From: Flavisolibacter tropicus
GTDB taxonomy: Bacteria > Bacteroidota > Bacteroidia > Chitinophagales > Chitinophagaceae
NCBI RefSeq assembly: GCF_001644645.1
Contig: NZ_CP011390.1
Location: 1,240,001 to 1,304,000, forward strand
Direction of reading: 5' to 3'
Length of the DNA stretch: 64,000 nt
A model generated the notes under the pieces. It saw nothing but the letters and a program-made list of their open reading frames with translations. It ran no database searches and had not been told where the DNA came from. Each line of letters begins with the position of its first letter. Position 1 is the first letter of the stretch. Shown here in pieces: positions 17,619-21,598 of the stretch. The position numbers were made by a program, and so were the translations under genes.

Positions 17619-17780
17619 CTACACGCGATAGACAGGTAAGTTAACAATACCCTTGACGGTATACGCATCCTGGTAATGTGCCGTATTGTGTTCCAACAGG
17701 CGCCTTTCCGCATCATCTGTTGTTCCAACATAAAAGCGGTTCAATTTTTCAGAGTAAAGGATATAGACCAGGTAGGGCAT
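17619..17780 (-). pseudogene. 3'-truncated GIY-YIG nuclease copy
   Basis: The first 45 codons match the two full GIY-YIG genes upstream on this strand (one base difference seen in about 135). The sequence then leaves the family at about 17645 and reaches a stop after VNLPVYRV, giving 53 residues. It keeps the YIL...FYVG core and the arginine-rich helix start but lacks the catalytic glutamate helix, so it should be inactive. It marks the distal, presumably oldest, end of the tandem array. Confidence 0.85.
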
Positions 17781-17820
17781 AAAACAAAAATAGCCGATCT
17801 TAAAAAGATCGGCTATTTAG
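17781..17820 (-). terminator. Terminator-like hairpin before truncated GIY-YIG copy
   Basis: On the minus strand TAGCCGATCTT-TTT-AAGATCGGCTA is followed by TTTTTGTTTT, which runs directly into the ATG at 17780. It is the third copy of the hairpin found at 18201 and 18621. Confidence 0.75.
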
Positions 17821-17915
17821 TGCCCCGGAACGGACTTGAACCGTTACGACCGTTGCGGGTCACAGGATTTTAAGTCCTGCGTTCCCGAAGCTTCGGGATA
17901 CCAATTCCACCACCA
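17821..17915 (-). pseudogene. tRNA-Leu(UAA)-like copy with palindrome in D-loop (distal)
   Basis: 95 bases matching the intact tRNA-Leu(UAA) at 18660-18745 over the D-stem start, anticodon arm (loop CTTAAAA), variable arm, T arm and 3' acceptor strand. Two changes break it. The first four acceptor bases GCCC are replaced by the end of the GIY-YIG gene, so the acceptor stem cannot pair fully. GAC of the D-loop is replaced by the 16-base palindrome TCCCGAAGCTTCGGGA (17883-17898). It is identical to the copy at 18241-18335. A functional tRNA is unlikely; a recognition or attachment role is possible. Confidence 0.85.
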
Positions 17916-18200
17916 CTACATTTTAGCAAGAACCGATTCAAGTACACCAGGAACGTCTTTGAGCTTTTGAATAAAAACCGATGACTTCATCTTTTTAACA
18001 AAGCGCTCCAGTTTATACGCTTGTTCACTGTTTGTGCACGCTATTGTCAAGTAAATCGTCCATGGAATGCCCTTGACGGTATACGCATCCTGGTAATGTG
18101 CCGTATTGTGTTCCAACAGGCGCCTTTCCGCATCATCCGTTGTTCCAACATAAAAGCGGTTCAATTTTTCAGAGTAAAGGATATAGACCAGGTAGGGCAT
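17916..18200 (-). CDS. GIY-YIG nuclease family protein, copy 2
   Basis: 94 residues of the small single-domain GIY-YIG (UvrC/Slx1-type) nucleases. LVYILYS (4-10) and FYVGTT (16-21) form the two core strands, R26 or R27 in AERRLLEHN follows, and the catalytic glutamate is in YKLERFVKKMKS. The TAG stop touches the first base of the tRNA-like copy. The ATG follows a terminator hairpin by about 10 bases, and no Shine-Dalgarno sequence is seen. It differs from copy 1 at three bases, one of which changes the last residue (Met for Ile). The gene is part of a tandem array next to tRNA-Leu, so the protein may act on tRNA-gene DNA or spread its own unit. That is inference. Confidence 0.9.
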   Translation of the reverse strand: MPYLVYILYSEKLNRFYVGTTDDAERRLLEHNTAHYQDAYTVKGIPWTIYLTIACTNSEQAYKLERFVKKMKSSVFIQKLKDVPGVLESVLAKM

Positions 18201-18236
18201 AAAACAAAAATAGCCGATCTTAAAAAGATCGGCTAT
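18201..18236 (-). terminator. Terminator-like hairpin before GIY-YIG copy 2
   Basis: TAGCCGATCTT-TTT-AAGATCGGCTA then TTTTTGTTTT, ending at the ATG of copy 2. It would terminate transcription from the tRNA-like copy unless read through. Confidence 0.8.
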
Positions 18237-18240
18237 CTAG

Positions 18241-18335
18241 TGCCCCGGAACGGACTTGAACCGTTACGACCGTTGCGGGTCACAGGATTTTAAGTCCTGC
18301 GTTCCCGAAGCTTCGGGATACCAATTCCACCACCA
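18241..18335 (-). pseudogene. tRNA-Leu(UAA)-like copy with palindrome in D-loop (proximal)
   Basis: Same 95-base structure as the copy at 17821-17915, with the palindrome at 18303-18318. The 3' two thirds, including the anticodon loop and T arm, match the intact tRNA-Leu(UAA) exactly by eye. The 5' acceptor strand is lost where the GIY-YIG stop codon (18336-18338) abuts it. Confidence 0.85.
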
Positions 18336-18620
18336 CTAAATTTTAGCAAGAACCGATTCAAGTACACCAGGAACGTCTTTGAGTTTTTGAATAAAAACCG
18401 ATGACTTCATCTTTTTAACAAAGCGCTCCAGTTTATAGGCTTGTTCACTGTTTGTGCACGCTATTGTCAAGTAAATCGTCCATGGAATGCCCTTGACGGT
18501 ATACGCATCCTGGTAATGTGCCGTATTGTGTTCCAACAGGCGCCTTTCCGCATCATCCGTTGTTCCAACATAAAAGCGGTTCAATTTTTCAGAGTAAAGG
18601 ATATAGACCAGGTAGGGCAT
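18336..18620 (-). CDS. GIY-YIG nuclease family protein, copy 1
   Basis: 94 residues, identical to copy 2 except for the last residue (Ile instead of Met). It has the same GIY-YIG core (YILYS, FYVGTT), arginine and glutamate. It is the first gene after the intact tRNA-Leu(UAA), separated by a hairpin of terminator form, so its transcription probably depends on read-through from the tRNA transcript. Such small GIY-YIG proteins are usually called nuclease family proteins without a known target. The near-perfect tandem copies point to recent duplication or ongoing gene conversion. Confidence 0.9.
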   Translation of the reverse strand: MPYLVYILYSEKLNRFYVGTTDDAERRLLEHNTAHYQDAYTVKGIPWTIYLTIACTNSEQAYKLERFVKKMKSSVFIQKLKDVPGVLESVLAKI

Positions 18621-18655
18621 AAAATAAAAAAGCCGATCTTAAAAAGATCGGCTAT
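18621..18655 (-). terminator. Terminator hairpin after tRNA-Leu(UAA)
   Basis: AGCCGATCTT-TTT-AAGATCGGCT followed by TTTTTTATTTT on the minus strand, immediately before the GIY-YIG copy 1 ATG. Confidence 0.85.
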
Positions 18656-18659
18656 CTAG

Positions 18660-18745
18660 TGCCCCGGAACGGACTTGAACCGTTACGACCGTTGCGGGTC
18701 ACAGGATTTTAAGTCCTGCGTGTCTACCAATTCCACCACCAGGGC
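18660..18745 (-). tRNA. tRNA-Leu(UAA)
   Basis: 86 bases forming a full class II tRNA: acceptor GCCCTGG/CCGGGGC, D stem GTG/CAC, anticodon stem CAGGA/TCCTG with loop CTTAAAA (anticodon TAA), long variable arm, T arm AACGG-TTCAAGT-CCGTT, discriminator A. CCA is not encoded. It is the intact parent of the tRNA-like copies in the array. Confidence 0.95.
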
Positions 18746-18776: not shown

Positions 18777-18782
18777 ATCTTG

Positions 18783-18855
<73 letters not shown>

Positions 18856-21508: not shown

Positions 21509-21592
21509 GCCCAGGTGGCGAAATTGGTAGACGCACTACCTTGAGGTGGTAGCGCTGGAAACGGCGTGCTGGTTCGAATCCAGTCTTGGGCA
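21509..21592 (+). tRNA. tRNA-Leu(GAG)
   Basis: 84-base class II tRNA: acceptor GCCCAGG/CTTGGGC, anticodon stem CTACC/GGTAG with loop TTGAGGT (anticodon GAG), long variable arm, T arm CTGG-TTCGAAT-CCAG, discriminator A. CCA is not encoded. Confidence 0.95.
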
Positions 21593-21598
21593 CAATTT

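Follow-up and report, generated by a model that had tools for sequence, protein, structure and literature searches.

Small GIY-YIG nuclease genes with tRNA remnants in Flavisolibacter tropicus and other Bacteroidota: probable home-and-rescue elements of tRNA genes

In the part of its published account that is available (PMC13096335), SegB of the T-even phages is described as a free-standing GIY-YIG homing endonuclease located in the tRNA region, which cuts inside tRNA genes and whose activity is required for the tandem amplification of the segment of tRNA plus segB by homologous recombination. The motif reported there is RAWTSGAAC, and the mutations that yield a catalytically dead SegB affect the residues matching Y17 and G19 of the protein considered here (PMC13096335). 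The present work concerns an array of small GIY-YIG nuclease genes and tRNA-Leu pieces behind an intact tRNA-Leu(UAA) gene, located in a 64,000-nt stretch of Flavisolibacter tropicus NZ_CP011390.1 (this whole stretch is called the window, and the coordinates in Table 1 are window positions). The array is probably one representative of a group of very small selfish elements found in Bacteroidota, made up of an Slx1-like nuclease and a tRNA-restoring sequence, which home into tRNA genes in a "home and rescue" manner.

Like SegB, as far as its account was available, the elements bring a GIY-YIG nuclease into the neighbourhood of tRNA genes belonging to many isotypes, and, as with free-standing homing endonucleases of the SegB type, the gene is present in one allele and absent from the orthologous site of relatives. 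In contrast to SegB, they are chromosomal rather than phage-borne, and the window protein has only 94 amino acids (aa) and no PHROG match at 0.001; the anatomy of a remnant plus a restored tRNA and the palindromes in tRNA loops, both present in these elements, are not described in the available part of the SegB account. The nearest solved relatives by sequence profile are 1zg2, 1ywl and SLX1, whilst the nearest solved folds to the predicted model are HIGLE and the branched-DNA nuclease Slx1. Unlike Slx1 and UPF0213, however, the present proteins have no RING domain, stand alone at 80–100 aa and are tied to tRNA genes, and we know of no described tRNA association for UPF0213. The systems of repetitive extragenic palindromes (REP) and REP-associated tyrosine transposases (RAYT) likewise combine a small nuclease gene with palindromes on its flanks, which are met in places without the gene too, but RAYT is a Y1 (HUH) transposase, which is absent from the unit protein, where GIY-YIG stands alone, and the palindromes here lie within tRNA remnants. 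Islands that integrate into tRNA genes enter such a gene and restore it, whereas the present units have no recombinase, a length of 420 bp and variable junctions. In synthetic cleave-and-rescue or home-and-rescue drives, a nuclease directed against an essential gene travels with a sequence that keeps this gene working; the present elements differ in being natural and bacterial, with a rescue part that shows no visible recoding at the window locus. The arrangement was not found described among the papers listed in searches of the open-licence text of PubMed Central, where SegB was the sole closely related account noticed, and the available part of a 2006 survey of GIY-YIG proteins (PMC1564403) makes no mention of it.

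On the minus strand, each unit of the window consists of a terminator-like hairpin, a GIY-YIG gene and a tRNA-Leu piece directly past the stop codon, in this order, as shown in Table 1. An earlier note on this stretch had reported tandem units behind the intact tRNA-Leu(UAA) with a third unit broken, nuclease genes differing at 3 of 285 bases and identical tRNA-like parts, and all of this was borne out, with gene starts spaced 420 bp apart and the whole units mismatching at 4/420. The 420-bp unit carries a single gene and no recombinase or integrase gene. The remnant is a tRNA-Leu truncated at its 5′ end (first 4 nt gone), in which the 16-nt palindrome TCCCGAAGCTTCGGGA stands in place of the three D-loop bases GAC. 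What the earlier note took for a copy of the neighbouring tRNA gene is this damaged remnant, most simply read as the displaced part of the host, and the intact tRNA part may be the incoming one, as judged from one locus. The window remnants are easily annotated as tRNA genes because Rfam still scores them as tRNA, at 30.8 bits against 58.1 bits for the intact gene.

Table 1. Features of the nuclease and tRNA-Leu array, in window positions.
Feature	Position	Strand	Remark
tRNA-Gly(GCC)	18782..18855	-	Upstream neighbour; belongs to segment duplicated in the genome
Intact tRNA-Leu(UAA), target/restored gene	18659..18745	-	Rfam tRNA 58.1 bits
Terminator-like hairpin and T-run (spacer T1), 3′ of intact tRNA-Leu	18627..18655	-	
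GIY-YIG nuclease gene, unit 1, 94 aa	18336..18620	-	PF01541; model pLDDT 94.8
tRNA-Leu remnant 1, without first 4 nt of tRNA	18240..18335	-	Rfam tRNA 30.8 bits
Palindrome TCCCGAAGCTTCGGGA in place of D-loop GAC, remnant 1	18303..18318	-	
Terminator-like spacer copy (T2)	18208..18236	-	
GIY-YIG nuclease gene, unit 2, 94 aa	17916..18200	-	3/285 bases unlike unit 1
tRNA-Leu remnant 2	17820..17915	-	Rfam tRNA
Palindrome in remnant 2	17883..17898	-	
Terminator-like spacer copy (T3)	17790..17818	-	
Third GIY-YIG gene, 5′ part alone	17646..17780	-	Homology stops at ~17646

When one genome of each species was scanned with an alignment of three nuclease sequences, tRNAs being ignored, 80 loci were obtained, nearly all from Bacteroidota and one from a Verrucomicrobia metagenome-assembled genome; six loci with <150 bp of upstream sequence were set aside and 74 were counted. 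A same-strand tRNA was found ≤150 bp upstream of the nuclease in 51 of the 74 loci, where ~0.26 would be expected from a background of 6 tRNAs in 252,858 bp lying >1 kb off. These upstream tRNAs were Met (13), Phe (11), Leu(UAA) (7), Asn (6), Leu(CAA) (5), Leu(GAG) (4), Lys (2), Arg (2) and Ala (1), and ten isoacceptor kinds are represented among the tRNA-linked loci. Among the remaining 23 loci, 15 have a tRNA or tRNA piece ≤700 bp away, belonging to second array units or to the mirror form described below. Just past the nuclease stop codon, the 3′ part of the same tRNA was detected in 44 of 46 testable loci (the 51 tRNA-linked loci minus five with too little downstream DNA), with scores above all 50 shuffles. 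Thus, the expectation that units would also lie beside other tRNAs, each with a piece of that tRNA, was confirmed, and the contrary outcome named in the earlier note, a single locus with a fixed unit count, is excluded by the units at many tRNA genes and the empty sites in relatives. Among 119 genomes sampled from the order, an 18-sequence nuclease profile has a match at 1e-8 in 76, and 26 of the 30 best loci have a same-strand tRNA ≤700 bp away, some of these loci being shared with the scan above; weaker nuclease matches are less tRNA-linked (5/20 with a tRNA ≤700 bp). One tRNA cluster (L254, G042:C9) holds two nuclease matches on opposite strands, one behind tRNA-Phe and the other before tRNA-Met.

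The remnants were compared in 56 loci with sufficient sequence (46 from the first scan, nine others and the window), of which 49 were well aligned, and in 48 of these 49 the remnant reaches the tRNA 3′ end. A palindrome of the form YCCGA...TCGGR, a pattern that also fits a few ordinary terminators (L055–L057), lies near the nuclease (≤200 bp downstream or ≤120 bp upstream) in 62 of 74 loci with ≥60 bp of downstream sequence, at 51 times its density >700 bp away. In the same 56 loci, four without a hairpin, 68 palindromes were detected, five of them unplaceable; the 63 placed palindromes sit in the T-loop (30), the anticodon loop (20), the D-loop (8) and elsewhere (5), so that 58/63 lie in loops, against a uniform expectation of ~17–18% for each loop, with p-values that are rough since the replaced windows were taken as uniform and the loci as independent. 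The hairpin detection overlooked palindromes in L126 and L153 that are visible in the tRNA alignment. The remnant palindromes are 16–20 nt long and often stand in place of 3–5 tRNA bases, several of them replace the entire anticodon arm, and the intact-tRNA side of the nuclease gene is usually free of them. In 35 of 52 remnants, the T-arm word seen in the intact tRNA is either interrupted or missing. By our reading, the SegB motif RAWTSGAAC is the T-arm sequence of tRNAs, GTTCSAWTY, read on the opposite strand, and it is in this arm that the 30 T-loop palindromes sit.

A mirror order, comprising a tRNA 5′ piece with a palindrome, the nuclease gene and an intact tRNA, was observed in L085, L114, L121 and L124; in L114 and L124 the region preceding the tRNA recurs likewise (by eye), and in L096 and L098 a tRNA 5′ piece and a nuclease are present on contigs that stop before any intact tRNA. 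In Terrimonas ferruginea, one row consists of two palindrome-bearing 5′ pieces, followed by an intact tRNA-Leu, a nuclease gene and finally a 3′ remnant. The mirror form and this row therefore indicate that the element can occupy either side of the whole tRNA. Both the mirror form and the loop palindromes, a regular component, enlarge the picture beyond that of the earlier note.

Relatives having the tRNA gene without a unit, which the earlier note had proposed to look for, were found at tRNA-Leu, tRNA-Arg and tRNA-Phe loci, and those orthologous sites that were read and lack the element have a single plain tRNA. At the tRNA-Gly/tRNA-Leu locus, none of 15 same-genus loci contains the nuclease (stretch of up to ~1.5 kb on each side). 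The tRNA-Arg(ACG) locus is occupied in genomes G052 (one unit) and G112 (two units, one broken by an N gap) and empty in G132, G101, G144, G150 and G119, where the tRNA leads directly to the next gene, which we take to be rpmB from its first residues; G126 has no nuclease and a different flank. The tRNA-Phe locus is occupied in G057 and empty in G037 and G082, with ~1.56 kb of upstream flank at 75% identity and 69–86 bp of downstream flank (to the contig ends) at 78%. In G057, the terminator behind the remnant resembles that of G070, G082 and G037 (0/200 shuffles as good), the spacer behind the intact tRNA-Phe has no above-chance match to any of four relatives, and the D and anticodon arms of the intact tRNA-Phe are unlike those of all four. 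On the simplest reading, the intact tRNA part, the spacer and the nuclease of G057 would be incoming, and the remnant with its terminator would be the host's. Decay of the elements is also seen, because G001 and G015 carry nuclease copies with stop codons and G070 has tRNA-Phe remnants (L213) with palindromes of another type and no nuclease directly behind. A tRNA-Met piece with a palindrome and no nuclease gene directly beside it (by eye) was noticed in L164 (G119).

A tree of 89 nuclease sequences was built from 72 of the 80 first-scan loci (eight were left out), 16 others and the window. The tRNA labels change 36 times on this tree against a shuffled mean of 56.5 (0/200 shuffles as low), in a clustering test that is limited by few columns and aided by near-copies, and in which the 16 other rows were labelled by hand, in some cases after tRNAs as far as ~330 bp off. 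When each label is considered by itself, clustering is found for Met, Phe, Leu(UAA) and Leu(GAG) (0/500 shuffles as low) and for Arg(UCU) (4/500). A group of 17 rows with support 98/95 contains no labels other than Leu, six of its rows being unlabelled, with hosts from several families. Nuclease lineages tend to keep one tRNA kind and to switch occasionally.

The window protein matches PF01541 (GIY-YIG superfamily) at 43.6 bits against a curated cut-off of 22.6, and all 18 sequences of the relatives' alignment match it at 0.001. A weaker PF10544 match is the only other domain in the 94 aa, and there is no C-terminal RING, so the protein departs from the Slx1 architecture. The residues Y6, Y17, R27, H31 and E65, presumably catalytic after I-TevI, are invariant across the 18 nuclease sequences, and the predicted structure (predicted local distance difference test score, pLDDT, 94.8) has the GIY-YIG fold. 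The homing endonuclease family phrog_314 is matched by 3 of the 18 relatives, the window protein not being among them. A tblastn search for carriers gave no match in plasmids (1e-5) or phages (1e-3), and among viral contigs 185 stretches fitted a pattern, none of which encoded a relative.

The anatomy of the element, the existence of sites with and without it, the preference of its lineages for certain tRNAs and its loop palindromes are all observed, and the element looks as if it works like a homing endonuclease. The nuclease would cut the tRNA gene, or a cloverleaf or cruciform form of it, in an element-free allele, and repair from the element-bearing copy, with the conserved tRNA sequence serving as homology arms, would import the nuclease gene together with the tRNA part needed for one working tRNA, the displaced tRNA part of the host staying behind as the remnant. 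The palindromes of the remnant would take away a loop open to cutting and interrupt the direct repeat, and may thereby make renewed cutting and loss of the element less frequent. Arrays like that of the window could arise when leftover tRNA-derived repeats recombine unequally, perhaps under stimulation by the nuclease. These steps are credible because SegB cuts tRNA genes and its activity is needed for tandem amplification. Restoring tRNA-Leu(UAA) would matter here, because a DNA search with the tRNA-Gly/tRNA-Leu region (E 1e-10, 20/22 candidates scored) found no further tRNA-Leu(UAA) in the genome outside two occupied loci, the window array and the second array described below.

A number of observations weigh against home-and-rescue. 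The earlier proposal of a self-spreading or homing element aimed at the tRNA gene is supported by the units beside many other tRNA genes and by the empty sites, but tRNA-gene cutting, repair-driven insertion, spreading or homing, palindrome protection and nuclease-stimulated amplification are inferred from the anatomy. A protein of 94 aa leaves little room for a separate DNA-binding domain, and Foldseek gave no match in the PDB at E ≤0.001. No tRNA or tRNA piece lies ≤700 bp away in 8 of the 74 loci, and two of the 46 testable loci (L086 and L118) have no remnant above the shuffles. The remnant starts are scattered from tRNA positions 2 to 58 with no single cut site, and one fixed insertion point in the tRNA was not found. 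The T-arm word is retained in 17 of 52 remnants, including those of the window. On the nuclease tree, Asn labels are weakly clustered (40/500 shuffles as low), and Leu(CAA), Lys and Ala labels show no clustering. The signature of a host-type terminator was examined at one locus, tRNA-Phe of G057, where the terminator of one of four relatives (G105) is unlike that of the remnant, and many other single units have two spacers that are alike. The intact window tRNA-Leu has no visible protective recoding compared with relatives, which leaves its escape from cutting unexplained.

The palindromes also speak for a partnership of the REP/RAYT kind, in which small GIY-YIG nucleases would mobilise short palindromes via hairpin loops and the tRNA branch would be one lineage whose palindromes, along with the nuclease gene itself, get into the loops of tRNA genes owing to their hairpin folding; the nuclease would be guided by structure instead of sequence. 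We rate this as possible but less likely than not. It gains from the density of core palindromes near the nuclease, their placement in T, anticodon and D loops and the predicted fold nearest to HIGLE and Slx1. The tRNA-class palindrome CCCGAWAGCTWTCGGG occurs in 23 of the 119 genomes (control 0), and the nuclease is present in 21 of these 23 against 55 of the 96 without CCCGAWAGCTWTCGGG (p 0.0017), an association that ignores shared ancestry. Palindromes of the same kind, CCCGATAGCTATCGGG, are embedded in a gene for RNase P RNA and in a cobalamin riboswitch (L163 1481-1808 and L159 1436-1653). Two further small GIY-YIG genes of the window genome, L001 (G000:C1:4033133-4033357) and L002 (G000:C1:3454709-3454936), have no tRNA ≤1.5 kb away and are each flanked by inverted repeats of 36–37 nt with 94–95% complementarity, and 17 sites of this genome carry the L001 repeat word (control 0). 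Among 20 further weak-match loci, five with a tRNA ≤700 bp and 15 without (two of the 15 with little or no downstream flank), inverted repeats of ≥37 bits were detected at eight of the 15 tRNA-less loci (against at most 22.9 in shuffles), with a single genus providing five of the eight, and none above shuffles at the five tRNA-linked loci, the two classes being disjoint among these 20.

Such a partnership is countered by several results. With ≤3 mismatches, the window palindrome gives 5 sites in its genome, four of them in two arrays and one weak (control 2), which rules it out as a dispersed repeat. Only 6 of 75 palindrome places lie <1 kb from a nuclease match, among the matches listed and by eye, and no nuclease was found beside dispersed palindromes at 30 loci (two positive controls in the repeat run), 20 of which were hand-picked and did not include those six, from G057, G070, G094 and G150. 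The palindrome is also usually absent from the intact-tRNA side of the nuclease gene. Apart from these results, in G073 (L166–L171, L173, L174) the palindrome lies midway in a longer dispersed repeat with two variants (by eye).

The close tRNA linkage, the mirror loci L114 and L124, where the gene is preceded by a tRNA 5′ piece that includes the upstream region of that tRNA (by eye), and the scores of the window remnants above the Rfam tRNA threshold would also fit a host or defence function at the RNA level, in which tRNA or similar RNA would be the substrate of the protein, as in a defence against phages, and the remnant would act as a decoy or regulator. We find this unlikely, as decayed or truncated copies, patchy presence and remnants without a nuclease speak against it, and the nearest solved folds include a nuclease of branched DNA.

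The genome is a single contig of 5.94 Mb, in which a second array was detected at ~4.829–4.831 Mb, in which tRNA-Gly and tRNA-Leu are followed by two units and by a third nuclease gene that is broken. The third gene is broken at differing points in the two arrays, and their flanks beyond the copied segment have no BLAST similarity (12 kb compared). The units differ at 1/420 within the second array, at 4 positions within the window array and at 3–4 between arrays, position 201 separating the arrays; these differences weakly suggest separate amplification of the arrays or some homogenisation. Closely spaced nuclease repeats were also found in other genomes, with two starts <600 bp apart in 14 of the 76 nuclease-positive genomes (among the matches listed, by eye, some being partial copies). 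An assembly artefact, which the earlier note had named as a possible refutation, is ruled out by the single-contig genome with its two arrays and by the closely spaced copies elsewhere. Contig ends lie 0–8 bases from the nuclease match in L081, L084, L096, L104, L109, L122, L147 and others, as expected of tandem arrays collapsed in short-read assemblies.

Passive tandem duplication of a resident nuclease gene beside a tRNA, with nothing mobile, was considered as well: the window arrays look like products of ordinary unequal crossing-over at repeats of 420 bp, and tRNA-Gly and tRNA-Leu were duplicated together as one whole segment. This reading is quite improbable, for it leaves unexplained the ten isoacceptors with matching remnants, the empty orthologous sites, the remnants on either side of the restored tRNA and the patchy occurrence. 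That the unit is cargo of a classical tRNA-integrating island with a tyrosine recombinase, which the target and the restoration of the tRNA 3′ end would bring to mind from what is generally known of such islands, is very improbable, given a 420-bp single-gene unit and junctions that are not at a fixed core.

A broader reading, which we hold to be possible though doubtful, would make small Slx1-like GIY-YIG nucleases a phylum-wide class of shape-guided DNA mobility, acting at hairpin loops and carrying palindromes in, with natural home-and-rescue drives of tRNA genes, which would cleave and replace an essential gene, as one branch and the tRNA-less copies with inverted repeats, many with a GTCA word, as another. 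If home-and-rescue is the true explanation, bacterial chromosomes would harbor a widespread selfish element that attacks genes among the most conserved of all and owes its survival to their restoration, which would make it the counterpart in nature of home-and-rescue gene drives. It would explain an annotation habit, in which small GIY-YIG genes stand by tRNAs, remnants are called as tRNAs and contigs end at such places. It also points to an enzyme for the palindromic repeats of Bacteroidota, for which no mobiliser has been named to our knowledge. Elsewhere in the window, a tRNA-Leu(GAG) gene at 21509-21593 (+) stands without an adjoining GIY-YIG gene.

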